Source: Deltaproteobacteria bacterium
GTDB lineage: Bacteria > Desulfobacterota > DSM-4660 > Desulfatiglandales > Desulfatiglandaceae
DNA length: 10,813 nt
Direction: 5' to 3'
NCBI GenBank assembly: GCA_021159825.1
Contig: JAGHDR010000058.1
Coordinates: 1-10,813, forward strand
Under the pieces are notes generated by a model that saw nothing but the letters and a program-made list of their open reading frames with translations, had not been told where the DNA came from and did not search any database. The stretch's first letter is position 1. Every line of letters starts with the position of its first letter. The translations under genes and the position numbers were made by a program. Positions 1 to 9,561 of the stretch are shown here, one piece after another.

Positions 1-23
1 GCATACTAACGCGGCAGAGCCGC

Positions 24-46
24 AGTTGTCAGTTGTCAGTTGTCAG
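24..46 (+). repeat. Heptad array, left arm of copy 1 (AGTTGTC x3)
   Basis: Three perfect tandem 7-bp units, AGTTGTC, followed by AG. They are the reverse complement of the CTGACAA units at 154-184, so the two arrays form inverted arms around the short reading frame. Confidence 0.9.
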
Positions 47-60
47 CACTGAAGGTTATT

Positions 61-171
61 TTGAAATTTGAGGATTTGGAAATATGGAAGAGGTCTCCAC
101 GATTATGCACAGATTTGTACAAACACTTTCAGGATATTATGGGCATGCTTTTACTGACAACTGATAACTGA
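61..171 (+). pseudogene. Truncated four-helix-bundle (23S rRNA IVS / S23-type) protein remnant, copy 1
   Basis: A 36-codon frame starts at TTG five bases after GAAGG and begins LKFEDLEIWKRSPRLCTDLY. The pattern F-x-D-L-x-(V/I)-W-(K/Q) followed by an amphipathic helix with LY-K is the recognisable first helix of the four-helix-bundle proteins encoded in 23S rRNA intervening sequences and related loci (normally about 115-130 residues). After about 26 residues the match stops and the frame runs into the heptad array, ending in LLTTDN-stop. The remaining three helices are missing, so this is a remnant with an intact start rather than a working gene. The second copy (9326-9436) breaks at the same point, so the deletion preceded duplication. 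The two peptides differ at four residues. Confidence 0.65.
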
Positions 172-184
172 CAACTGACAACTG
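154..184 (+). repeat. Heptad array, right arm of copy 1 (CTGACAA x4)
   Basis: Four tandem 7-bp units (CTGACAA, CTGATAA, CTGACAA, CTGACAA) and a partial CTG. One unit carries a C-to-T change. Complementary to the left arm at 24-46. Confidence 0.9.
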
Positions 185-260
185 GTACCACATAGCGATT
201 TTCTTGTTTTTTGCGACAGAAAACCACGTTCCTAAGGTACTAAAAGGGATCAAATGACCC

Positions 261-1037
261 ATGTTATCTTTGAACATTTCCCTTCCGCAAGTGCAAACAT
301 TCCTCTTGATTTTCTTGAGAGTCGGCGCCATTTTGCTGACCGCGCCGATCTTTAACAGCCGTAATATCCCCGTTTTGTTTAAGGTCGGACTTTGTTTCGC
401 CGTCAGTCTCATTCTGTTCCCTATTTTGAATCTACAAAATTTGCCTGTTCGATTTGAGCTCATACCCCTGGTTATAGGTGTCATCAGCGAAGTCCTTATC
501 GGGGTCATTATCGGTCTTTCCGTTAGAATGTTGTTTGTGGGGATACAGCTGGCGGGGCAGTTGGTGGGCTTTCAGATGGGTTTGGCCATGGCCAACATCA
601 TCGATCCTGCCACAAGCGAGCAGGTCCCTCTTCTTGCCCAGTTAAATAACCTCATTGCTTTGCTGGTTTTTTTGGCCATAAATGCTCACTACTGGTTTTT
701 GCGGGCCCTGGTCGAAAGCTTCCGGTTGGTACCCCCCTTTGAATTTCAATTCACCCATTCCCTGATGGAGCAGTTAATGATTCTTGCCGGTAATATATTT
801 GTTATCGCCGTCAAGGTAGGGGCGCCCCTCATCGTGGTGCTGTTTTTAATGAGCGTCGCATTTGGGCTGGCGGCACGGACCGTTCCGCAAATGAATATCT
901 TTTTTGTGGCAATGCCCCTGAAAATCCTTGTCGGTCTGATGTTTTTTGTTTTTGCCCTCCCGTATATGACGTCGTTTTTCGAGGCCATATTCAGTGGAGT
1001 GGGGAATGATATACTAAAGCTTCTAAATGCCATGTAA
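261..1037 (+). CDS. fliR: Flagellar biosynthetic protein FliR (export gate)
   Basis: FliR is an inner-membrane component of the flagellar type III export gate; with FliP and FliQ it forms the entry portal for rod, hook and filament subunits. The 258-residue product has the family's usual length. It opens with the typical segment LPQVQTFLLIFLRVGAILLTAPIF, followed by several long hydrophobic stretches separated by short charged loops. The conserved-looking QLVGFQMGLAMANIIDP segment lies near the middle, and the protein ends in a final hydrophobic helix. The ATG at 261 is preceded by AAAGGGAT (243-250). A nearby ATG at 254 is in another frame. Repeat element copy 1 lies directly upstream, and flhB follows after 146 bp, the standard gene order. 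fliP and fliQ are not in the window and may lie upstream. Identity is secure. Confidence 0.95.
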   Translation: MLSLNISLPQVQTFLLIFLRVGAILLTAPIFNSRNIPVLFKVGLCFAVSLILFPILNLQNLPVRFELIPLVIGVISEVLIGVIIGLSVRMLFVGIQLAGQLVGFQMGLAMANIIDPATSEQVPLLAQLNNLIALLVFLAINAHYWFLRALVESFRLVPPFEFQFTHSLMEQLMILAGNIFVIAVKVGAPLIVVLFLMSVAFGLAARTVPQMNIFFVAMPLKILVGLMFFVFALPYMTSFFEAIFSGVGNDILKLLNAM

Positions 1038-1183
1038 CCCCCATGCTCTGCGGGCACAACATTCATTTTTACTTCAATATTTTGGGGAGCGAAGCGACAT
1101 CATTATTCGATGTTCGACGTTGGACGTTCGATGTTGGAAGTTCATTTTCATATATGGCTATAGGATCATGATAGAGGATTGTC
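1038..1183. other. fliR-flhB intergenic gap
   Basis: No gene fits here. The gap holds the mini-palindrome GCGAAGC (1089-1095), a five-unit heptad array (1108-1142) and the flhB ribosome site AGAGGA (1173-1178). A 10-mer, TCTGCGGGCA (1047-1056), recurs in the flhB-flhA gap at 2407-2416. I see no convincing terminator or promoter. Confidence 0.6.
1108..1142 (+). repeat. Degenerate heptad array CGAYGTT x5
   Basis: Five consecutive 7-bp units: CGATGTT, CGACGTT, GGACGTT, CGATGTT, GGAAGTT. The period is exactly seven, but the sequence differs from the CTGACAA arrays. As in the mini-elements, a short GC-containing palindrome sits just upstream (1089-1095). Tandem heptanucleotides of this kind resemble the STRR repeats described in cyanobacterial genomes. 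Confidence 0.75.
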
Positions 1184-2257
1184 GTGGCTGAAAAGGGTGA
1201 CCAGGAGAGGACTGAAAAACCGACGGGCAAGAAGCTCTCCAAGGCAAGGGAGGAGGGACAGGTTGCAAAGAGTCAGGAGATCTCCACCGCCTTCATACTA
1301 TTCGGGGCCTTAGGCGTATTTCTCTTTGCGGGGCCATGGATGTTTTGGGCGCTTTCCGACTTTATGCACGGCATTTTTCAAAATCTTGGGACCTTGCATA
1401 TGGAGGGGATTTCGGCCAGGGCGTTTTTGTTTGAGGTGTTGCAACAGGTAGGCCTTATCCTCATGCCTCTACTTTTGGTTCTGTTGATTTTGGGAATTGC
1501 CGCCAACCTCCTTCAGGTGGGGTTCTTGTTCACCTTAAAACCATTTACCCCGAAGTTATCGAAATTTAACCCCATTACGGGGATGAAAAAATTCGTCTCC
1601 CTGAAAGCTCTGGTCGAGCTTCTCAAATCACTTTTTAAGGTTAGTTTCATCGGCGGCATCTCATGGCTGGTCCTGCGGGGAGAACTGGATGCGATCCCGT
1701 CGCTCATGGAGATGAGTGTGGGGCAGATCCTGACCTATATGGGCACCGTCTCCTTGAAGATGTTTTTTTATGTCGGTCTGGGAATGCTTGTCCTGGCTGC
1801 CATAGATTTCACTTACCAGCGCTGGCAACATACCAAAGATCTGATGATGAGCAAACAGGAAGTGAAAGATGAGGCCAAGCAGGCTGAGGGAGATCCGCAG
1901 ATCAAGGGCAAGATCAGGCAGGCTCAAAGGGAAATGGCCATGAGAAGAATGATGGAATCCGTGCCTGATGCGGATGTTATCATCACCAATCCGACCACTT
2001 TGGCCATTGCCGTAAAATATGATGCCAAACAGATGTTTGCCCCCCAGGTCGTAGCGAAGGGGGCCAAGTTGATGGCGGAAAGGATTAAGGATATTGCCAG
2101 GGACAACGATGTGCCCATTGTGGAGAACAAACCCCTGGCCCGGACCCTTTTCAAGTCCATGGAGGTTGGCGACCTTGTCCCGCCTGATCTCTATAAGGCA
2201 GTGGCCGAAGTCCTGGCATATGTCTATAAGCTGAAGGGACAGCGGAACGGCGCATAG
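1184..2257 (+). CDS. flhB: Flagellar export switch protein FlhB (variant NPTT site)
   Basis: FlhB is the substrate-specificity switch of the flagellar export apparatus; its cytoplasmic domain normally autocleaves within NPTH to allow the change from hook to filament export. The 357-residue product has the hallmark N-terminus (EKGDQERTEKPTGKKLSKAR), four hydrophobic segments within about residues 35-215, the linker MSKQEVKDEAKQAEGDP and the C-terminal domain ending VAEVLAYVYKLKG. At residues 269-272, the position of NPTH in Salmonella FlhB, this protein reads NPTT: the Asn-Pro scissile bond is kept but the histidine is Thr. GTG at 1184 is chosen because AGAGGA (1173-1178) precedes it and it gives the full family N-terminus. 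Identity is secure; the cleavage rate is open. Confidence 0.95.
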   Translation: MAEKGDQERTEKPTGKKLSKAREEGQVAKSQEISTAFILFGALGVFLFAGPWMFWALSDFMHGIFQNLGTLHMEGISARAFLFEVLQQVGLILMPLLLVLLILGIAANLLQVGFLFTLKPFTPKLSKFNPITGMKKFVSLKALVELLKSLFKVSFIGGISWLVLRGELDAIPSLMEMSVGQILTYMGTVSLKMFFYVGLGMLVLAAIDFTYQRWQHTKDLMMSKQEVKDEAKQAEGDPQIKGKIRQAQREMAMRRMMESVPDADVIITNPTTLAIAVKYDAKQMFAPQVVAKGAKLMAERIKDIARDNDVPIVENKPLARTLFKSMEVGDLVPPDLYKAVAEVLAYVYKLKGQRNGA

Positions 2258-2303
2258 TTCAATTTTTGACACCCATCGTCAAATTGTAGAGCCCTTACCT
2301 GGT

Positions 2304-2324
2304 TTCCAATTTCCAATTTCAAGT
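2304..2324 (+). repeat. Short heptad array TTCCAAT x3 (last unit degenerate)
   Basis: Units TTCCAAT, TTCCAAT and TTCAAGT in perfect 7-bp register. It is short, so weak alone. It gains weight because the flhG-fliA gap carries related units in the opposite orientation (TTCAAAT/TTCAACT as reverse complements). Confidence 0.5.
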
Positions 2325-2379
2325 TACAACACCTGTTCCTGCCTGTAAATATCCAATACATTCAAGGGCCTGGTACCTA

Positions 2380-2407
2380 AAATTCGGTGTTTCACCTGCG
2401 AATTTTT
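2380..2407 (+). terminator. Possible weak intrinsic terminator or attenuator hairpin
   Basis: AAATTCG (2380-2386) pairs perfectly with CGAATTT (2399-2405). The stem extends inward through GTG/CAC around a TTT loop, with a three-base bulge on the 3' side. The 3' arm runs into a five-T tract (2403-2407). The stem is AT-rich at its base, so efficiency would be low. It could equally be an mRNA processing or stability hairpin. Confidence 0.3.
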
Positions 2408-2477
2408 CTGCGGGCATGGAAAATGCATACGTTCACATCATAGAAGAAACGGATAACCCTAACGAGACTGGAGAGAT

Positions 2478-4580
2478 ATGGAGCTGACAGGCCAAACCGA
2501 TCATTCAATAGGAATCCCCTTTCTCACCGAGAACAGCGAGATTGTGGCGGCTCTGGGTGTTGTAGGCATCCTGATCCTGATGGTCATGCCTTTGCCCCCC
2601 TTTATGCTGGATCTGCTCTTGTCGTTTAATATCACATTTGCCCTGACGATTCTTTTAGTGGGCACTTATCTTATGAAGCCGTTGGATTTTTCGTCCTTTC
2701 CCACCGTACTTTTGATTGCCACATTGTTCAGGTTATCTCTTAATATTGCTTCAACACGGATCATCCTGTTGCATGGAAGCGAGGGTCCCGCGGCTGCCGG
2801 AAGTGTGATCAAAGCCTTTGGGGGCTTTGTTGTGGGAGGGAATTATGTGGTTGGGGCCATCGTTTTCATCGTTCTTGTGATTATAAATCTCCTGGTTATT
2901 ACAAAAGGTTCCGGAAGAATCGGTGAGGTGGCCGCCCGTTTTACCTTAGATGCCATGCCCGGAAAACAGATGAGTATCGATGCGGATCTTAACGCGGGAC
3001 TCATAGGAGAAGAAGAGGCAAAGGCAAGGCGGAAAGAGATTTCCCGTGAAGCGGATTTTTACGGGGCCATGGACGGGGCCGGCAAATTCGTCAAGGGAGA
3101 TGCCGTAGCCGGTGTGATCATCACCTTGATCAACATCGTGGGGGGGCTTGCCATCGGGGTCTTGCAGAACGGTATGAATATCGCCGATGCCGCACAGACC
3201 TACACCCTGCTAACGGTCGGCGACGGTCTTGTTACCCAGATCCCCGCCCTGATGATATCAACCGCCGCCGGTATCGTGGTCAGCAGGGCGGGGTCTAGGT
3301 CAACCATGGGCAGAGAAATATTGTCTCAGATTTTGCGGCAGCCGAAAGCCCTGGGTATTGCCTCCGTGGTTCTCTTCGGATTTGGTCTGGTTCCCGGACT
3401 TCCGGCGGTGCCCTTTATTTTGTTGTCGATGATTGCCGGGGGCGTGGCGTACACTGTGACCCAGTCAAGAAAGGCCGAGCAGGAAAGGGTTGAAGAGAGG
3501 GAGATGATTGAAGAGAAGGCCGGACCGCAAGAAGCCCTGGAATCGATCCCCCCCGTCGATATCCTGGCCCTGGAGGTTGGGTACGGCCTTATTCCCATGG
3601 TGGATGCTGAACAGGCCGGTGATCTCTTAGAAAGGATCAAGTCTTTCAGGCTTCAGATCGCCAAGGAGATCGGGATTGTTGTTGCCCCTATTCATATACA
3701 GGATAATATGAAGCTGAAGCCCGGCGGATATTCCATTCTGCTCAAAGGGAATGAAGTGGCCGGGGGTGAGTTGATGATGAACCACTATCTGGCAATGGAT
3801 CCCGGCAATGCGGATGGAAAGATCGGTGGTGTTCCCACAAAGGAGCCTACCTATGGACTGCCGGCCTTTTGGATTAAGGAGGGGGCGAGAGAAAACGCTT
3901 TGGCCAAGGGATATACCGTTGTTGACCTCTCCACTGTTTTGATAACCCACCTGTCCGATGTGATCAGGCGGCATGCCCATGAATTATTGGGAAGGCAGGA
4001 GGTTCAGCAACTTATGGATAATCTGAAAACTTCCTATCCAAAAGTGGTGGAGGAACTGATACCCAATCTGCTCCCCCTTGGCGCCGTCGGGAAGGTCCTT
4101 CAAAATCTTCTGATAGAACAGATTCCCATCAGAGATATGTTGACCATCCTGGAGACATTGGCCGATTGGGCCCCGATGATAAAGGACGCTGATACGCTCA
4201 CCGAGTATGTCCGGCAGGCCCTTGCCAGGACCATTACCAAACTCTATCAAAGCCCTGAGGGGAATATTCCGGTCATAACCCTGGACCAGAACATTGAAAA
4301 AACCGTGGCTCAGGCGGTTCAGCACACAGAACAGGGTGACTTTCTCCCAATTGAGCCAGGCGTAGCCCAGAAGATAATGAAAAAAGTAACCCAGAATCTG
4401 GAAAAATTTTCAAAGCTCAACCAGCAGCCGGTTGTTTTGTGTTCACCGCTGATCAGGTCGCATTTTAAGAAACTTGCCGACCGGTTTATTCCTGATTTGG
4501 TTGTGTTGTCATATAATGAGATTGCAAATAATATACAAGTTCACTCTATAGGAACGGTGGTGTTGGACGATGCAAATTAA
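2478..4580 (+). CDS. flhA: Flagellar biosynthesis protein FlhA (export gate)
   Basis: FlhA forms the nonameric ring of the flagellar type III export gate; it uses the proton motive force and docks chaperone-substrate complexes on its cytoplasmic domain. The 700-residue length is normal. The N-terminal half carries about eight hydrophobic segments. Between them is the FHIPEP-family signature RFTLDAMPGKQMSIDADLNAG (starting at R154), followed by AKARRKEISREADFYGAMDGAGKFVKGDA. A charged linker around residues 330-355 leads to the soluble C-terminal domain, with RRHAHELLGRQEV and the terminal SIGTVVLDDAN. The ATG at 2478 follows GGAGAG with unusually short spacing (2 bases), but no better in-frame start exists. 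Its last 11 bases overlap flhF, implying translational coupling. Identity is secure. Confidence 0.97.
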   Translation: MELTGQTDHSIGIPFLTENSEIVAALGVVGILILMVMPLPPFMLDLLLSFNITFALTILLVGTYLMKPLDFSSFPTVLLIATLFRLSLNIASTRIILLHGSEGPAAAGSVIKAFGGFVVGGNYVVGAIVFIVLVIINLLVITKGSGRIGEVAARFTLDAMPGKQMSIDADLNAGLIGEEEAKARRKEISREADFYGAMDGAGKFVKGDAVAGVIITLINIVGGLAIGVLQNGMNIADAAQTYTLLTVGDGLVTQIPALMISTAAGIVVSRAGSRSTMGREILSQILRQPKALGIASVVLFGFGLVPGLPAVPFILLSMIAGGVAYTVTQSRKAEQERVEEREMIEEKAGPQEALESIPPVDILALEVGYGLIPMVDAEQAGDLLERIKSFRLQIAKEIGIVVAPIHIQDNMKLKPGGYSILLKGNEVAGGELMMNHYLAMDPGNADGKIGGVPTKEPTYGLPAFWIKEGARENALAKGYTVVDLSTVLITHLSDVIRRHAHELLGRQEVQQLMDNLKTSYPKVVEELIPNLLPLGAVGKVLQNLLIEQIPIRDMLTILETLADWAPMIKDADTLTEYVRQALARTITKLYQSPEGNIPVITLDQNIEKTVAQAVQHTEQGDFLPIEPGVAQKIMKKVTQNLEKFSKLNQQPVVLCSPLIRSHFKKLADRFIPDLVVLSYNEIANNIQVHSIGTVVLDDAN

Positions 4581-5817
4581 AAGATTTCGAGCACAGGATA
4601 TGACTGAGGCCTTGAGGTTGGTCAAGAAGGAGTTCGGTTACCAGGCAGTCATCCTTTCCGCTAAGGAGATGAAGAATGGTGCAGGGATGCTTGGATTCTT
4701 GAAAGGGCCGTGTGTGGAAGTAACTGCGGCGACTGACACCGGCTATCTCAACGAGAAAAATGAAAATACTTCTGCCGGAAAGCGGCGGCGTCATAAGGGT
4801 GTGGCTGCGGGACCGGTTTCTATGGGTCGAAGAGATTGGCGGAGACCCATTTCTTTGATTAAAGAAGAAGTCGGCGTTTCAAGAAACAGGGCCGGCCTGA
4901 CGAAGACGAGAAATGTTTTCCCTCAACAGAGGGATGTTGAAATGAGTCTCTTCGATCTTTCTCAGGAAATGCAGAACCAGGGTGTGAAAGAAGTCATCGC
5001 ATTGGATTTGATCAAAGAACTCGATGCCGCTGTATCCTCAAACAAGCTTTTTAGCCCTGAAGCGATCAGGCAGAGCCTGATCGAAAATCTTGAAAAAATG
5101 GGCGTAGCGACAAGATCCGTAAGAATAGAACGTGGAAAACAAAAAGTGATTGCCTTGATAGGCCCTACCGGGGTCGGAAAAACGACCACTATCGCGAAAT
5201 TAGCCGCCATTGGCGGTCTTGCCAGGAAAAGGAAGATCGGATTGGTTACCTTGGATGACAAGCGAATCGGGGCCATTGCTCAACTCGAAGTTTACGCCAG
5301 GATTCTGAATATTCAGATGGAAGTCGCTTCAAGCAAAGAAGCGGTTGTGGAATCCCTCCAAAAATTAAAAAGGAAAGATATTGTTCTGATTGATACACCC
5401 GGGATAAGCTACAGGGATACACGTCAGCTGGGTGATCTGAAAGATCTTCTCGATAATGTCGGACCTGTAGAGATTCATCTTCTCTTGAGCGCCGTCACAA
5501 AGGAAAAGGATTTCAATCGCATTTTAGACAGGTTCAGCGTAATCCCTATTGATAGCCTGATATTTACAAAACTGGATGAAAGCAGTGAATACGGGGATCT
5601 CCTTAATCAGTTAATCCGGACAAAAATACCTGTTTCATATTTTACAAGTGGTCCACAAGTCCCGGAAGACATAGAAGTTGCAACTTTGGAGAAATTGGTG
5701 GATCGGATATGGGTCCGAAAAAAAGGCGCCGGACGTGTATCCGTAAGATCGGAAGCATCGAGGAGCAGACAAACACAGCGTGAATACGGCCCCTATTTGA
5801 GACGATCATATGCTTGA
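4570..5817 (+). CDS. flhF: Flagellar SRP-type GTPase FlhF with altered G motifs
   Basis: FlhF is a membrane-recruited SRP-family GTPase that fixes where and how many flagella are built. The 415-residue product has the FlhF-specific start (MQIKRFRAQDMTEALRLVKK), a basic variable linker (about residues 65-130), a helical N domain and a G domain. The P-loop is GPTGVGKTTTIAKLAA from residue 198, and G4 is TKLDE at 333-337. Two signature motifs deviate. The stretch usually reading TDTYRIGA is LDDKRIGA (228-235), and the usual DTAGR is DTPGI (275-279). The Lys and Thr of the P-loop and the G4 Asp are intact, so nucleotide binding is likely, but hydrolysis or dimer activation may differ. The start overlaps the end of flhA by 11 bp; flhG follows after 58 bp. 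No frameshift is seen. Confidence 0.93.
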   Translation: MQIKRFRAQDMTEALRLVKKEFGYQAVILSAKEMKNGAGMLGFLKGPCVEVTAATDTGYLNEKNENTSAGKRRRHKGVAAGPVSMGRRDWRRPISLIKEEVGVSRNRAGLTKTRNVFPQQRDVEMSLFDLSQEMQNQGVKEVIALDLIKELDAAVSSNKLFSPEAIRQSLIENLEKMGVATRSVRIERGKQKVIALIGPTGVGKTTTIAKLAAIGGLARKRKIGLVTLDDKRIGAIAQLEVYARILNIQMEVASSKEAVVESLQKLKRKDIVLIDTPGISYRDTRQLGDLKDLLDNVGPVEIHLLLSAVTKEKDFNRILDRFSVIPIDSLIFTKLDESSEYGDLLNQLIRTKIPVSYFTSGPQVPEDIEVATLEKLVDRIWVRKKGAGRVSVRSEASRSRQTQREYGPYLRRSYA

Positions 5818-5875
5818 TCGCCGAACCGCTATACACCGGTATTAACGGACTCAAAAAAACGGAGAGATACGAGCA

Positions 5876-6790
5876 GTGAATCATAAAGCCCCACCGAGAA
5901 AGGTCATTAGTCTGACCCGGAGAATAGCAGGCAAGAAGGCTGCTACGGAAAAGAGAAAAAGGAAAATCCGCAAATCCCATACGCGTGTCATCGCCGTAAC
6001 CAGCGGCAAGGGAGGCGTGGGTAAAAGTAACATTGTTGCCAATCTTGGATTTGTTCTTAGCCGGTCGGGGAAAAAAGTCTTGATTCTTGATGCGGATTTA
6101 GGGTTGGGGAATCTGGATGTGTTGTTAGGGCTGACGCCGAAATATAATTTATCCCATGCCATTACAGGCTCAAAAACCATCTCGGAAATCGTGATAGAAG
6201 GTCCGGGAAATGTCAAGATCCTGCCCGCTCCTTCGGGTATCCAAGAACTCAGCAATTTGACGGATGAACAAGAAACGCGAATGTTCACGGCCCTTGATTT
6301 ACTCATTGATTCCGTTGATCTCTTCTTGATCGACACGGGGGCCGGGATTTCGTCAAATGTGATGCATTTTAACAGCAGTGCTCCGGAGATTATGGTTGTT
6401 GCTTCTCCGGAACCCACGTCCATTACGGATGCATACGCCTTAATGAAAGTCCTCTCTCTCGATTATTCAAGAAAGCACTTTAAACTGGTGGTAAATCTGG
6501 CCAGGAGTTCCAGGGAAGCCTTCGAGGTTTACAAACGATTAGCGTTGGTCGCCGATAGATTCCTGGATATAAAAATCGAATATATGGGACATGTGTTGAT
6601 CGATGAAAATATCAAAAAGGGCGTAAGGCTTCAAAAGGTGGTGAGCGAAATCCACCCTGACGCCAAGGCAAGCAGATGTTTTGCCGCCCTTGCAAAAAAG
6701 ATATTTGAATCGCGGCCCTCTGATGTTCCGGAGGGAGATACGAATTTTTTCTGGAGGAAGCTTGTCCGTAATGGAACAAGGTACGAGTAA
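5876..6790 (+). CDS. flhG: MinD-like ATPase FlhG (FleN/YlxH), flagellar number regulator
   Basis: FlhG is a MinD/ParA-family ATPase that works with FlhF to limit flagellar number and, in polar flagellates, restrains the flagellar master regulator. The 304-residue product has the deviant Walker A SGKGGVGKS (residues 43-51), the LDADLGLGNLD segment (switch I region, about 76-86), LIDTGAG (switch II) and a C-terminal amphipathic region suited to membrane binding. The N-terminal 38 residues are very basic (RKRKIRKSH) and show no recognisable DQAxxLR-type FlhF-activating motif. GTG at 5876 follows GGAGAG (5861-5866) at normal spacing. fliA follows after 47 bp containing a heptad array. Family assignment is secure. 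The choice between the names FlhG and FleN is by convention. Confidence 0.93.
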   Translation: MNHKAPPRKVISLTRRIAGKKAATEKRKRKIRKSHTRVIAVTSGKGGVGKSNIVANLGFVLSRSGKKVLILDADLGLGNLDVLLGLTPKYNLSHAITGSKTISEIVIEGPGNVKILPAPSGIQELSNLTDEQETRMFTALDLLIDSVDLFLIDTGAGISSNVMHFNSSAPEIMVVASPEPTSITDAYALMKVLSLDYSRKHFKLVVNLARSSREAFEVYKRLALVADRFLDIKIEYMGHVLIDENIKKGVRLQKVVSEIHPDAKASRCFAALAKKIFESRPSDVPEGDTNFFWRKLVRNGTRYE

Positions 6791-6791
6791 A

Positions 6792-6819
6792 GTTTGAAAT
6801 TTGAAAGTTGAAATTTGGG
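6792..6819 (+). repeat. Degenerate heptad array RTTTGAA x4 in flhG-fliA gap
   Basis: Units GTTTGAA, ATTTGAA, AGTTGAA and ATTTGGG in 7-bp register, starting two bases after the flhG stop. They are close to the reverse complement of the units at 2304-2324. The array occupies most of the 47-bp gap and leaves fliA with a poorly placed ribosome site (GGGGTGG, 6817-6823, 14 bases from the ATG). Confidence 0.6.
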
Positions 6820-6837
6820 GTGGAATAGCTGTTTACT

Positions 6838-7596
6838 ATGGAACCGGCAAAAAGGGAAATTGAGCAGGGGTGGAAGGCGAACTTCGATTTAAGGGATGAG
6901 CTGATAACCGAATACCTCCCCTATGTTAAAAGCATAGCCCATCGGATGGCGGTTCACCTCCCCCCCAGCGTAGAGGCGGATGACCTCTTTAATGCAGGCG
7001 TCATAGGCTTGATGAATGCCATAGAACGTTACGATGCCACCAGAGAGAATAAGTTTATTACCTATGCGTTGTTTAGGATCAGGGGGGCCATGTTGAGTGA
7101 GTTGCGATCCCGGGACTATCTCTCCAGATCCAATAGAAGCAAAATTCGTGAATTGGAAAAGGCATATCAAGACCTGAATCTGAAGTTAGGCCGGGATGCG
7201 GAAGATGATGAGGTCGCTGAGAAACTGGGCATAAACCTGAACGAATTTAACGATATTCGCAGGATGTCTACCATGTCTTTTGTCAGTTTCGAGGAAATTG
7301 GATCTTTGTCAAACGAGGAAAAAGACGGTCTCATGCACCTTTTGGTGGATGGCAACAGCGATGATCCGCTGAGCCTGGTAGGGTTGAAAGAGATGAGAAA
7401 CGCCATTGCCGGTTCCATCGATCAATTGAAGGAAAAAGAAAGAATGGTGGTGTCATTATACTACTGGGATGAATTGACGATGAAAGAGATTGGTAAGGTT
7501 TTGGATATAACGGAATCAAGGGTGTCCCAAATTCATTCCCAGGCCCTTATTCATCTGAGAGGCCGATTGAAAAAAGACGGCGTGACAATGAATTGA
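6838..7596 (+). CDS. fliA: Flagellar sigma factor FliA (sigma-28 / SigD)
   Basis: FliA directs RNA polymerase to late flagellar and chemotaxis promoters once the anti-sigma factor FlgM is exported. The 252-residue length is typical. Region 2 begins near residue 22 (YLPYVKSIAHRMAVHLPPSV), includes the core-binding DLFNAGVIGLMNAIERYD and ends with FRIRGAMLSELRSRDYLSR. Region 3 lies at about 110-150. Region 4 carries the helix-turn-helix LTMKEIGKVLDITESRVSQIH near the C-terminus. ATG at 6838 is the only plausible start, since an in-frame TAG lies at 6826-6828. The Shine-Dalgarno is weak and distant, suggesting low translation or coupling to flhG. No flgM-like gene is in the window. No chemotaxis genes separate flhG from fliA, unlike in Bacillus. 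Confidence 0.95.
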   Translation: MEPAKREIEQGWKANFDLRDELITEYLPYVKSIAHRMAVHLPPSVEADDLFNAGVIGLMNAIERYDATRENKFITYALFRIRGAMLSELRSRDYLSRSNRSKIRELEKAYQDLNLKLGRDAEDDEVAEKLGINLNEFNDIRRMSTMSFVSFEEIGSLSNEEKDGLMHLLVDGNSDDPLSLVGLKEMRNAIAGSIDQLKEKERMVVSLYYWDELTMKEIGKVLDITESRVSQIHSQALIHLRGRLKKDGVTMN

Positions 7597-7658
7597 CGGT
7601 CCCGTCGGAAAAGACGATGTTCCAAACCGGGATCGAGCAGTTATGAGAGGCGGGTGTT

Positions 7659-7928
7659 ATGAACGACGCCATGAATATTCAGAAAGTGTTTTTCCCCATA
7701 TCGTCTACACAGGGGGTTCGTCGTCTTGAGAAGGAGCATCCCGATTCAAAAAAAAGAAGCTTTGACAGGGATCTCGAGGAAGAAAAAGACGGCGGGAAGA
7801 ATGAGAAACAGGAAGCGCCCCTCGAAATGGTGAAAGCGAGTGATAAGAGGGCGGATCCTGACGTCGACGTCAAGAAACACAATAGCTCCGGCGCAACGGT
7901 GGGAACTTTGGTTGACATTCGAGCGTAG
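7659..7928 (+). CDS. Small hydrophilic protein of unknown function in fliA operon
   Basis: I do not recognise a family for this 89-residue protein. It has no hydrophobic segment or signal peptide. Its middle (about residues 23-72) is highly charged and rich in Lys, Glu and Asp, as expected of a disordered protein. It ends VGTLVDIRA, and the last residues look more ordered than the rest. It is judged real because GAGAGG (7645-7650) sits 8 bases before the ATG at 7659, it lies 62 bp after fliA and 18 bp before the next gene, and the same frame stays open with no overlap. Its place between fliA and the TM/HTH gene suggests a flagellar accessory role, but that is inference from context only. Confidence 0.7.
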   Translation: MNDAMNIQKVFFPISSTQGVRRLEKEHPDSKKRSFDRDLEEEKDGGKNEKQEAPLEMVKASDKRADPDVDVKKHNSSGATVGTLVDIRA

Positions 7929-7946
7929 TTTGGAGGGAAATGGTAA

Positions 7947-8333
7947 ATGACATCCTTAATGGCAGGACAATTGGAAATAGCGACGGATGCAGTCTCCATC
8001 TGTTTTTTTGGTATTACAGCGCTATTATTGGTTATCATGACAATTAAATATGGTCGAAGTTCCCGGAAACAGGCGATTACGGCAAACATCGGTGGGTTTA
8101 ATGAAGAACTTGTTCACGAGATAAGGCAATCTGAAAAAAGAAATAAAAATGATCGTATTTCTGATGAGCGGAAACCCGGCCCATATGGAAATGTGGAGAA
8201 GTTGGCTGATTTGGGCCTGAGTGCGGGAGAGATCGCTAAGAAGGTAAGTATCCCCAGGAGCGAAATTGAACTCATCTTAAGACTGAAAAAATTCGATCTT
8301 AAATCCCGCATGAAGAATGGAGACGTGGGATAG
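7947..8333 (+). CDS. Single-TM protein with C-terminal HTH-like domain (DUF2802/SwrB-like)
   Basis: A 128-residue protein with one membrane segment near the N-terminus (about residues 14-34, VSICFFGITALLLVIMTI). A charged linker follows, then a C-terminal helix-turn-helix-like block at 83-114 whose core is LGLSAGEIAKKVSIPRSEIE. This architecture resembles the DUF2802-type proteins often found near flagellar genes, and it recalls Bacillus SwrB, which lies directly after sigD and promotes assembly of the export apparatus. Here too the gene follows the flagellar sigma factor, one small gene away. Strong GGAGGG (7932-7937) supports the ATG at 7947; an ATG at 7940 is out of frame. Membrane anchoring argues against a classical DNA-binding regulator. 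The family name is from memory of the pattern and should be treated as likely, not proven. Confidence 0.75.
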   Translation: MTSLMAGQLEIATDAVSICFFGITALLLVIMTIKYGRSSRKQAITANIGGFNEELVHEIRQSEKRNKNDRISDERKPGPYGNVEKLADLGLSAGEIAKKVSIPRSEIELILRLKKFDLKSRMKNGDVG

Positions 8334-8526
8334 GGAAAAAATTGCCGACAGCAAGGGAGAAGGACGGCGAGATATGCGGCGATCATCAACAGGAAGAACC
8401 TTTTTTACCCAGTATTGATGCGTAAATATTCCGATGACTTTTGGCATATATTTTGCGTGTTAATCCTTATCATGGGCAATGTTCAAGTCTGAAATCAAAC
8501 TGCACAGCCCTTTGGAGGTTTAAAAA
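8334..8526. other. Promoter-bearing gap before flgF
   Basis: No gene fits. This 193-bp gap, the second longest in the window's interior without a heptad array, carries the sigma-54 promoter (8442-8457) and the flgF ribosome site GGAGGT (8514-8519). Bases 8345-8440 would be the place for an upstream activator site, but I could not define one. No clear terminator for the upstream genes is visible. Confidence 0.6.
8442..8457 (+). promoter_or_regulatory. Sigma-54 (RpoN) promoter for flgF
   Basis: TGGCATATATTTTGCG matches the -24/-12 consensus TGGCAC-N5-TTGC. The invariant GG is at 8443-8444 and the invariant GC at 8455-8456, with exactly 10 bases between them as required. The only core deviation is T for C at the sixth base. 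Predicted transcription would start near 8468, about 59 bp before the flgF ATG. Sigma-54 control of rod and hook genes is usual in polarly flagellated Proteobacteria, via an enhancer-binding activator not seen here. Confidence 0.8.
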
Positions 8527-9267
8527 ATGAGCCTGACCCAAGCGATGTACGCAGCCTCTGCCGGCGCATATAAAAATCAACAGCGGTTGGATGTTCTGGC
8601 CAATAATCTCGCTAACATCAATACCCCGGGCTTCAAACAGGACAAACTGGTCTTCCGTGTGCCTGTCGGCGCTGAAAAGGAGGGGAATTCACAAACCGAT
8701 TACCTTCAAGGCCCTTCCGCTGCGATGGCACGTGGCGGCTGGACTGACTTTTCACAGGGTATTTTGAGATGTACGGACAATCCTCTGGACTTGGCGTTGG
8801 ATGGCACGGGTTTCTTCTGTGTCCGAACACCGGAGGGAACGCGTTACACGAGAAATGGAAGTTTTACAATCAATGGGGATGGTGTTCTGGCCACCAGGGA
8901 CGGGCACCCGGTTTTGGGTAAAGGGGGCGAAATTAAAATCGACGGGCGCAATGTCAGTGTTGACGAGGAGGGCAAGGTTTCTGTCGATGGAAGTGAAGTG
9001 GGGACGTTGAAGGTTGTCTCGGTTTTACAACCCGAATCCTTGAAGAAGATGGGCAATACCCTCTTTGCTTCCGCCGGGGCTGATGAAAAGGAGGCCGAAG
9101 GATTCAAAATAAGGGAGGGATATATCGAAACATCTAATGTAAACGCCATAAGAGCCATGACGGAAATGATAGATATATCCAGATCCTATGAATCGTATCA
9201 GAAAACCATACAGTTTCTCAACGACGCCACCAAAAAATCTATCAACGAGGTTGGAAGGTTGGCTTAA
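8527..9267 (+). CDS. flgF: Flagellar basal-body rod protein FlgF
   Basis: FlgF is a proximal rod subunit exported through the type III gate and assembled in the periplasm. The 246-residue product has the rod/hook-family N-terminal motif LANNLANINTPGFK (residues 24-37). The central flgE/F/G-type domain includes DLALDGTGFFCVRTPEGTR and the TRNGSFTINGDG stretch. The C-terminal coiled-coil region (about 200-246) reads MIDISRSYESYQKTIQFLND and ends INEVGRLA. It has no cleavable signal, as expected for type III substrates. FlgF fits better than FlgG, which typically begins MIRALWTAASGM. GGAGGT lies 7 bases before the ATG, and a sigma-54 promoter lies upstream. The usual partner flgG does not follow; instead a repeat element begins exactly at the stop codon, then fliG. 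Confidence 0.9.
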   Translation: MSLTQAMYAASAGAYKNQQRLDVLANNLANINTPGFKQDKLVFRVPVGAEKEGNSQTDYLQGPSAAMARGGWTDFSQGILRCTDNPLDLALDGTGFFCVRTPEGTRYTRNGSFTINGDGVLATRDGHPVLGKGGEIKIDGRNVSVDEEGKVSVDGSEVGTLKVVSVLQPESLKKMGNTLFASAGADEKEAEGFKIREGYIETSNVNAIRAMTEMIDISRSYESYQKTIQFLNDATKKSINEVGRLA

Positions 9268-9281
9268 CGCGGCAGAGCCGC

Positions 9282-9311
9282 AGTTGTCAGTTATCAGTTA
9301 TCAGTTATCAG
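9282..9311 (+). repeat. Heptad array, left arm of copy 2 (AGTTGTC + AGTTATC x3)
   Basis: Four 7-bp units followed by AG. Three share the same G-to-A change relative to copy 1, which points to spread of one variant by unit duplication. Confidence 0.9.
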
Positions 9312-9325
9312 CACTGGAGGTTATT

Positions 9326-9436
9326 TTGAAATTTGAGGATTTGGAAGTATGGAAGAAGTCTTCACGATTATGCGCAGATTTGTACAAACACTTTCAAGAT
9401 ATTATGGGTATGCTTTTACTGACAACTGACAACTGA
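9326..9436 (+). pseudogene. Truncated four-helix-bundle protein remnant, copy 2
   Basis: A 36-codon frame beginning LKFEDLEVWKKSSRLCADLY, with TTG start and a better Shine-Dalgarno than copy 1 (GGAGG, 5 bases upstream). It matches helix 1 of the S23/IVS four-helix-bundle family even more closely (DLEVWKK, ADLYK) and then reads into the heptads to end LLTTDN-stop, the same junction as copy 1. Between the copies there are four replacement changes and three silent changes, giving no sign of strong purifying selection. It may still be translated as a short peptide. Confidence 0.65.
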
Positions 9437-9466
9437 CAACTGACAACTGACAACTGACAACTGACA
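9419..9466 (+). repeat. Heptad array, right arm of copy 2 (CTGACAA x6)
   Basis: Six perfect CTGACAA units and a partial CTGACA. Copy 1 has four, so unit number varies between copies, as expected from replication slippage. Confidence 0.92.
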
Positions 9467-9561
9467 CCCTATAACGACTTTCTTGTTTTTTGTGATAGAA
9501 AACCAGGTGATAAGGGCCTAAAACCTTTAACCCTGTGAAATGGATATGGAATAGATAGCCT

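Follow-up and report, generated by a model that had tools for sequence, protein, structure and literature searches.

The window analysed here, a stretch of 10,813 nucleotides of contig JAGHDR010000058.1 (assembly GCA_021159825.1, a Deltaproteobacteria bacterium of the Desulfatiglandaceae), contains a flagellar gene cluster in which two direct copies of one composite element are embedded (6-243 and 9264-9521; 83% identity across 7-245). Each copy consists, in this order, of CTAA (TTAA in copy 2), a GCGGC-AGA-GCCGC hairpin, a heptad array, a frame with a TTG start, inverted heptads, a T-rich tail and CTAA. The left array is built of CAGTTGT/CAGTTAT units, the TTG is preceded by GAAGG in copy 1 and GGAGG in copy 2, and the final codons of the copy 1 frame overlap the right arm. 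A first-pass annotation, made from the letters of the window alone, had listed these parts (palindrome, heptad arms, Shine-Dalgarno sequence, TTG, 36 codons and tail), and all were present where it had placed them. It had interpreted the 36-codon frames as S23 genes (four-helix-bundle family, PF05635) that had lost their remainder at one and the same point, and the copies as offspring of a deleted parent mobilised in the manner of miniature inverted-repeat transposable elements (MITEs).

The assembly of the window's own genome (2.15 Mb, 420 contigs, 76% complete) gave 83 matches to window positions 1-300 at E ≤ 0.001, many of them to arms only. PF05635 matched the genome at one place only, an open 129-aa frame without stops (locus L013, identical with L031; 116.8 bits against a cut-off of 33.8), which sits in the gap between atpB and atpE (neighbours named from their translations) and is flanked by the same heptad arms, again inverted. 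The profile support for the remnants themselves was weak: PF05635 matched copy 2 at E = 0.086 (13.5 bits) and copy 1 not at all, and NF008912 matched the two at E = 5.9e-06 and 1.2e-06, far under its cut-off. The S23 identity of the 36-aa remnants rests on the DNA identity between the window copies and the element of the intact gene, which is 91% over 116 nt for copy 1 and 94% over 122 nt for copy 2. The family match put forward for the remnants is unambiguous for their parent and remains weak for the 36 residues taken alone.

Relative to the L013 element, positions 137-403 are missing (join 136^404, type A) from both window copies and from ten further loci of the own genome (L001-L012); the same join was found in L017, where the contig end cuts it, by eye in L015 and L016, and in the relatives G001 (L038; L052/L273, one place) and G017 (L039). 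One internal deletion has been amplified to at least 12 places of the own genome. Three other deletions also leave the arms in place: type B (47^334-336) in L018, L020 and L272 and, for the 3' part alone, in L255; type C (64^398-402) in L023, in L257, L258, L263 and L266 of G001 and, for the left part alone, in L019; and type D (89^390) in L060 of G020. The relative G033 carries the complete composite at L090, with CTAA hairpin, arms, intact S23 gene, arms, T-rich tail and CTAA. By this comparison the window copies are MITE-like derivatives, that is, short internal deletions of a coding element with an intact S23 gene. The full-length parent with the same flanks that the first-pass annotation had predicted exists in the own genome (L013) and in a relative (L090), and its proposal of a mobilised deleted parent is supported by the twelve own loci (window copies included) that share the identical join. 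One type A copy (L010, 1485-1680) lies at the centre of a palindrome, GTTCACAGGGTGCA / TGCACCCTGTGAAC. Intervening sequences (IVSs) of 23S rRNA have been described as replacing hairpin loops, and insertion into hairpins may be a habit that they share with the present elements.

Inverted repeat arms around S23 genes

Matches to PF05635 were found in 51 of 61 genomes (the own genome and 60 relatives), at up to 24 places per genome. For each S23 locus we computed an arm score, the inverted complementarity between about 200 nt before and about 240 nt after the S23 match. Sample 1 was taken from the best 75 PF05635 rows, of which 68 were used, seven having been set aside before their flanks were inspected, and L102 and L105 were dropped for short flanks (n = 66). 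Sample 2 was the best 80 of 543 matches to one Desulfobacterota S23, from many phyla and from archaea (L172, L176 and L220 dropped, n = 77). Both samples are biased to strong S23 matches. Sample 3 added 40 further places in rank order, fragments and frames with several stops being excluded, and a few AT-rich arms in it are weak cases. As a control, the score was also computed for windows displaced by 750 nt inside the sample 1 and sample 2 loci. Inverted arms with a score of at least 15 flanked 117 of 143 loci in samples 1 and 2 and 35 of 40 in sample 3 (152/183 in total; 150/181 distinct loci, as L155 = L074 and L396 = L191), while 0 of 269 shifted windows reached this score. Flanks of the same locus matched each other better than flanks of different loci in sample 1 (mean 21.5 vs 10.0; sum 1419 vs 671 ± 27, maximum 806 in 10,000 permutations), sample 2 (20.8 vs 10.5; 1603 vs 820 ± 29) and sample 3 (20.3 vs 10.6; 811 vs 434 ± 18), and the cross-locus 95th percentile was exceeded by 53/66, 52/77 and 33/40 loci, respectively. 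The parent L013/L031 scored 26, its own right flank ranking first of 66. The Avd family (PF22296), tried as a negative control, gave no clean comparison, as most of the 46 matches listed coincide with S23 places.

The best period among lags 4-10 was 7 in 117 and 8 in 26 of the 152 armed loci. When samples 1 and 2 were pooled (117 armed loci), identity was highest at lags 7 (0.58) and 14 (0.53); it was 0.32 at lag 8 and stayed within 0.25-0.28 at all remaining lags between 2 and 15. The median arm is 5.1 × 7 nt long, and the left arms contain 11.5% C and 31% G on the coding strand. The distance between the arms has a median of 394 nt (361-480 nt in 80% of the 117 loci), which leaves room for S23 only. 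The repeat sequence matches within a locus and differs between most loci; aligned in phase, the arms share a core, NNAG(T/G)NN, with 1.49 bits vs 1.02 ± 0.03 in 30 column-permuted nulls (10 restarts for the data and 4 for the nulls). The TTGTCAG/CTGACAA repeat, arrays of which the first-pass annotation had expected to bound full-length genes, is one repeat among many. About one in six armed loci has an 8-nt unit, including L066, L069, L078 and L104; the unit appears to be 9 nt in L153 and 6 nt in L186 and L409.

Arms and proteins diverge together. The share of common 6-mers between arms was at most 0.03 for S23 pairs below 45% identity; it rose to 0.34 for pairs in the 65-80% range and to 0.46 for those more than 80% identical (Mantel r = 0.31 over 117 armed loci, duplicate pair included; top of 2,000 permutations 0.086). 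Groups for comparing neighbouring genes were chosen by arm similarity, and shared frames were tested at E 1e-6. Similar arms with no shared neighbouring frames, as expected for mobile units, were found at L066, L069, L078, L103, L104, L107, L110 and L112, in the pair L031/L090, and at L161, L168, L179 and L195 when compared with L067/L071/L074/L075. The same neighbours recur across genera in L067/L071/L074/L075, L083/L086/L116 and L085/L087, so some insertions are old. Among the Pedobacter-type cassettes L223, L199 and L233, which have similar arms, the gene that precedes the cassette in two loci has a homologue that follows it in the third.

S23 is mostly under purifying selection in the pairs compared: of 14 unsaturated pairs, a few of them with dS > 1, 12 had a ratio of nonsynonymous to synonymous substitution rates (dN/dS) of at most 0.3, and three more pairs were saturated. 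With the longest frame to either side counted as the neighbour, 86 of 108 loci have both neighbours co-directional with S23 and 2 have both opposite. An alignment of 38 S23 proteins has W10, Q35, R38, N46, G50, S69 and E72 invariant and S42 and E49 nearly so, and the S23 profile matches the solved relatives 2gsc and 2rld, each with five chains in the entry. Samples 1 and 2 include 26 low-scoring S23 loci; an Rfam scan of 12 of these gave no match and hence no rRNA context.

Occupied and empty insertion sites

A search with one S23 protein as query hit 36 plasmid records, of which 30 are cyanobacterial; phage records, searched with a single S23 query, gave no match. Eight of 12 plasmid loci reached an arm score of 15, the others being L305 (11), L309 (12), L310 (8) and L311 (10); in L309-L311 the annotated gene, which the test removed, holds part of the right arm. 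L309, on plasmid C of Trichormus variabilis ATCC 29413, was compared with the 97-98% identical plasmids of Nostoc linckia NIES-25 and Tolypothrix PCC 7712. The empty site reads AAAAAGTAATTAACAAAT and the occupied site AAAAAGTAATAAA[heptads-S23-heptads]GTAATTAACAAAT, with an 8-nt duplication, GTAATWAA, that has one mismatch (7/8). For L310 (Nostoc ATCC 53789) two Nostoc plasmids served for comparison, and the armed segment is flanked by a duplicated TTCTA. At both sites the duplication overlaps the stop codon of the upstream gene, the arms lie at the insertion boundaries or a few nt from them, and the empty alleles contain no such repeats at the insertion point. No relative was found for L302 and only distant ones for L306. 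Between sister plasmids, L310 (700-970) and L319-L321 differ in gene-less repeat stretches, present in both orientations upstream of the S23 cassette, which look like mobile or deleted arms.

Two plasmid cassettes lie in CRISPR-associated loci. In Anabaena sp. 90 (L307) the cassette occupies the gap between cas6 and cas4 with an arm score of 27, and in Picosynechococcus PCC 7003 (L308) S23 stands between Cmr2 and Cmr3 with an arm score of 17; PCC 7002 (L315) has no S23 there. From these comparisons the link of S23 to cas loci looks like cassette insertion.

The window copies are nested in a second, CTAA-bounded unit. Their outermost ends are the CTAA/hairpin and the T-rich tail, and the heptad arms are subterminal; the inverted heptad ends ascribed to the copies by the first-pass annotation are true of the armed segment and do not form the termini of the window copies. 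Outer units without an S23 remnant are present in G004 and G002, and CTAA or a near form stands at both ends of the units. The scan for them required YTAR-like ends, so exceptions could not be counted; own copies with other left ends are L004 (TTAA) and L011 (TTAC). The terminal CTAA may be a target duplication or part of the unit. Both the type A copy L010 and the parent L013 have no outer unit, and the armed segment thus also exists on its own. Among 31 units with both neighbours called, the orientations were ++ 13, -- 9, +- 5 and -+ 4 (own genome ++ 6, +- 1, -+ 1; G004 ++ 4, -- 6, +- 2, -+ 2; G001 ++ 3, -- 3, +- 2, -+ 1). The comparison of occupied with empty sites that the first-pass annotation had called for could be made for this type at the fliE/fliF gap, which is empty in G001 (CCGGTTTAGGATGG) and occupied in G000 (CCGGTCTAA[element]CTAAGATGG), as well as for S23 cassettes at the two base-precise plasmid sites. 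A Y1/HUH transposase as mobiliser of the outer unit is not supported, as 0 of 30 examined Y1_Tnp loci (5 own, 25 from relatives; out of 39 genus matches) carry the ends of the unit.

Flagellar setting of the window copies

The coordinates of both copies and of further arrays are collected in Table 1.

Table 1 Features of the two elements and other heptad arrays in the window
Feature	Positions	Strand	Method
Copy 1, CTAA-bounded mini-element with beheaded S23 remnant, type A deletion	6..243	+	
Left CTAA, copy 1	6..9	+	
Hairpin GCGGC-AGA-GCCGC, copy 1	11..23	none	
Left heptad arm (CAGTTGT)n, copy 1	23..46	+	period-7 scan
S23 remnant, copy 1 (TTG at 61, 36 codons, TGA 169-171)	61..171	+	
Right heptad arm, inverted, copy 1	153..184	-	period-7 scan
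T-rich tail of outer unit, copy 1, CTAA at end (240-243)	199..243	+	
Heptad array, GTTCGAY type, fliR/flhB gap	1106..1142	none	period-7 scan
Degenerate heptad array, starts at stop codon of MinD-like gene	6790..6817	none	period-7 scan
Copy 2, same mini-element, begins on flgF stop codon	9264..9521	+	
Left TTAA, copy 2 (CTAA in copy 1)	9264..9267		
Hairpin, copy 2	9269..9281	none	
Left heptad arm, copy 2	9281..9311	+	period-7 scan
S23 remnant, copy 2 (TTG at 9326, 36 codons, TGA 9434-9436)	9326..9436	+	
Right heptad arm, copy 2, 7 units	9418..9466	-	period-7 scan
T-rich tail, copy 2, CTAA at end (9518-9521)	9480..9521	+	

The period-7 scan found six arrays in the window, the four element arms and two more, against 0 in 50 mononucleotide shuffles. 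In a single-stranded DNA fold of copy 2 the arms pair with each other (z = -2.8; 2 of 200 shuffles were as stable). The units of the array at 6790-6817 are GTTTGAA/ATTTGAA, and a short TTTCCAA pair was noted by eye at 2303-2322 in another intergenic gap of the flagellar cluster. The array at 1106-1142 is a possible decayed arm of another family, and all three arrays are possibly decayed arms of other S23 families.

The neighbouring genes, named by NCBIfam, are fliR, flhB, flhA, flhF, a MinD-like gene, a FliA/WhiG sigma factor, flgF and fliG; the MinD-like gene occupies the usual position of flhG. The window joins flgF through the element to fliG; the relative G001 has flgF-flgG and fliF-fliG. 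No flgG was found in the own assembly, the flgG of G001 matching only a 59-nt flgF end, and the flgF-[element]-fliG join may stem either from a rearrangement through the repeat or from a chimeric contig (misassembly). An Rfam scan of the window up to E 0.1 gave no match, and so no 23S rRNA context for the copies.

Probable mobility of S23 elements and its alternatives

The inverted arms at most S23 loci, together with precise empty alleles and duplications of 5-8 nt at two plasmid sites, suggest transposon ends that enclose S23 as their sole gene. We consider it probable that the intact form is a mobile element in which one S23 gene is flanked by two inverted arrays, each of about five units of the element's own short repeat (7 nt in most cases), and that the window holds two MITE-like derivatives of it. 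Elements of the same build, usually with another repeat, occur in many groups of bacteria and archaea.

Several observations weigh against this explanation. Arms fell below the threshold at 31 of 183 loci, the best period was neither 7 nor 8 at 9 of 152 armed loci, and the own right flank was the best match at only 31 of 66 sample 1 loci (among the top three at 50), in part because related loci share arms. Cassette boundaries were base-precise at only 2 of the 9 sites compared. Six sites are empty in relatives with about 10 to 180 nt of difference (L308, L304, L300, L311, L013 vs G003, and L104 vs G028); at L300, L304, L308 and L311 the absence of the cassette goes with about 10 to 42 changed spacer bases. 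At the L304 site, where L318 also carries S23, plasmid L317 has no S23 and differs by some 150 bases that include similar repeats of the GGGAACT type, and in a plasmid stretch of Dolichospermum (L433) about 99% identical to that of L307 the cas6/cas4 gap holds a different inverted repeat, GTAGGTTGGGTT...AACCCAACCTAC. Two S23 pairs have dN/dS of 0.56 and 0.95, old cassettes with constant neighbours do not imply current activity, and S23 has no known catalytic site. S23 may play no part in the movement of the window copies if they move as CTAA units, and transposition as such we infer from comparison rather than from observed events.

The point about CTAA units can be widened into an explanation to which we give nearly an even chance for the window copies: they would be MITEs derived from an insertion sequence with a CTAA/YTAR target, which swallowed an S23 remnant and are served by a transposase elsewhere, S23 and heptads being irrelevant to movement. 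Some IS5-family elements have YTAR targets. CTAA or a near form at both unit ends (in a scan that itself required YTAR), units without an S23 remnant in G004 and G002, the lack of orientation bias over the 31 units and the empty site TTTAG at fliE/fliF speak for it. However, by eye the two ends of the unit do not form an inverted repeat, none of the 30 Y1_Tnp loci examined among 39 genus matches has these ends, and the type A copy L010 and the parent L013 do without the outer unit. The S23-derived units of the own genome moreover lean to sense (++ 6 of 8, -- 0), and 8 of 9 inspected G004 units keep an AGTTTTA/GGTTTTA-like repeat, the ninth a short one.

The co-directional neighbours (86 of 108 loci against 2 with both opposite) would also suit an element acting at the RNA level, in which the transcribed arms form a stem that RNase III cleaves, as in 23S IVSs, and spread proceeds via an RNA intermediate. 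Such IVSs have complementary ends and are excised by RNase III according to the portion of PMC4990558 available, and the homologous Avd serves a retroelement (PMC10053308, in the portion available). We regard this as unlikely. Arm mismatches show no G.U excess (195 G.U-compatible vs 225 A.C), target duplications fit DNA insertion, selection for expression can explain the orientation bias, and the 12 scanned low-scoring loci gave no Rfam match. That the arms match yet lack such an excess speaks more for a process at the DNA level, by which both ends are kept alike, than for selection on an RNA stem. Alternatively, the arrays could be regulatory or hot-spot sequences that were there beforehand and in which S23 lands by recombination. 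Arrays do occur without S23, they have been read as regulatory in the sections available of PMC4679880, PMC2700814 and PMC4692102, and the S23-less allele L317 has similar repeats at the L304 site; but the empty alleles of L309 and L310 lack such repeats at the insertion point, and the two arms of a locus resemble each other and diverge in step with its gene. This we hold to be very unlikely.

For the mobile S23 element, that S23 reads its own repeats is our leading inference on movement. S23, with five chains per entry in two solved relatives, would bind its own arms, perhaps with one unit per subunit, and would recognise the repeat through the AG core and lineage-specific bases. It might then pair both ends and either cut or recruit a host enzyme or recombinase. 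Insertion at gene boundaries, mostly in sense, would allow the host operon to express S23, and derivatives that keep the arms without the gene would be moved in trans. In the genus of the window, the type A derivative would have joined the outer CTAA-bounded unit and spread with it.

Among known systems, 23S rRNA IVSs are similar in having an S23-family gene between complementary ends; the IVS of Coxiella is a suspected mobile element with RNase III excision, and the function and origin of S23-bearing IVSs are called unclear in the part of PMC4990558 available. The S23 elements described here differ in lying between protein genes, in their arms of tandem short repeats and in two empty sites with target duplications. 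Intergenic heptamers have the same unit length and position, and the window arms equal CAACTGA/TAACTGA. TAACTGA heptamers were reported from Beggiatoaceae, Cyanobacteria and Bacteroidetes, with no mechanism given in the text available (MacGregor 2015, PMC4679880), whose main text contains 'helix bundle', 'S23' and 'intervening' 0 times. Geobacter heptanucleotide sites were read in 2009 as regulator binding sites (PMC2700814, in the sections available), and the reverse complement of their class 3 MTYCTGA, TCAGRAK, covers the TCAGAAG type among the S23 arms. The G-rich heptamers of Xanthomonas and Nostoc were generally not found with mobile elements, as stated in the sections available of a 2015 report (PMC4692102). 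In contrast to the arms described here, these heptamers were presented, in the text available, as regulatory or of unexplained origin, with no link to S23 and not as element ends. Bacterial MITEs are alike in being short, non-autonomous internal deletions with inverted arms and empty sites; for the present elements no transposase-encoding relative was found, the parent of the window copies carrying S23 only. Genes for 23S_rRNA_IVP (S23) have been reported in cas loci at the same Cmr2/S23/Cmr3 and cas6/S23/cas4 positions (PMC3936711, in the portion available), which we here read as inserted cassettes (arm scores 17 and 27; PCC 7002 without S23). Avd, the accessory protein of diversity-generating retroelements, is homologous to S23/PF05635 proteins, going by the sections available of PMC10053308. 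PMC11270868 and PMC8700078 gave nothing further. Among the publications listed we found none joining such heptamer repeats with S23, preprints and most subscription journals lying outside the search; as far as the texts available go, repeats and S23 have been described separately.

A wider proposal, to which we give somewhat less than an even chance, is possible: S23 proteins may be the mobilisers of an unrecognised superfamily of minimal transposable elements, each with a gene for a four-helix bundle of about 110 residues and about five tandem 7- or 8-nt repeats per end. The repeat would be rewritten in each lineage with a co-evolving protein and read with one unit per pentamer subunit, insertion would take place at gene boundaries in operons, and 23S IVSs and many of the unexplained heptamer arrays between bacterial genes would be branches or remains of the superfamily. 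If S23-bearing IVSs and intergenic heptamers both belong to one mobile element, two puzzles would be joined. Many annotated four-helix-bundle proteins would gain a role, and S23 genes in CRISPR operons would be insertions rather than accessory genes. The elements would represent a transposable element without a recognisable transposase, in which protein and end repeats co-diverge and which is open to laboratory test.

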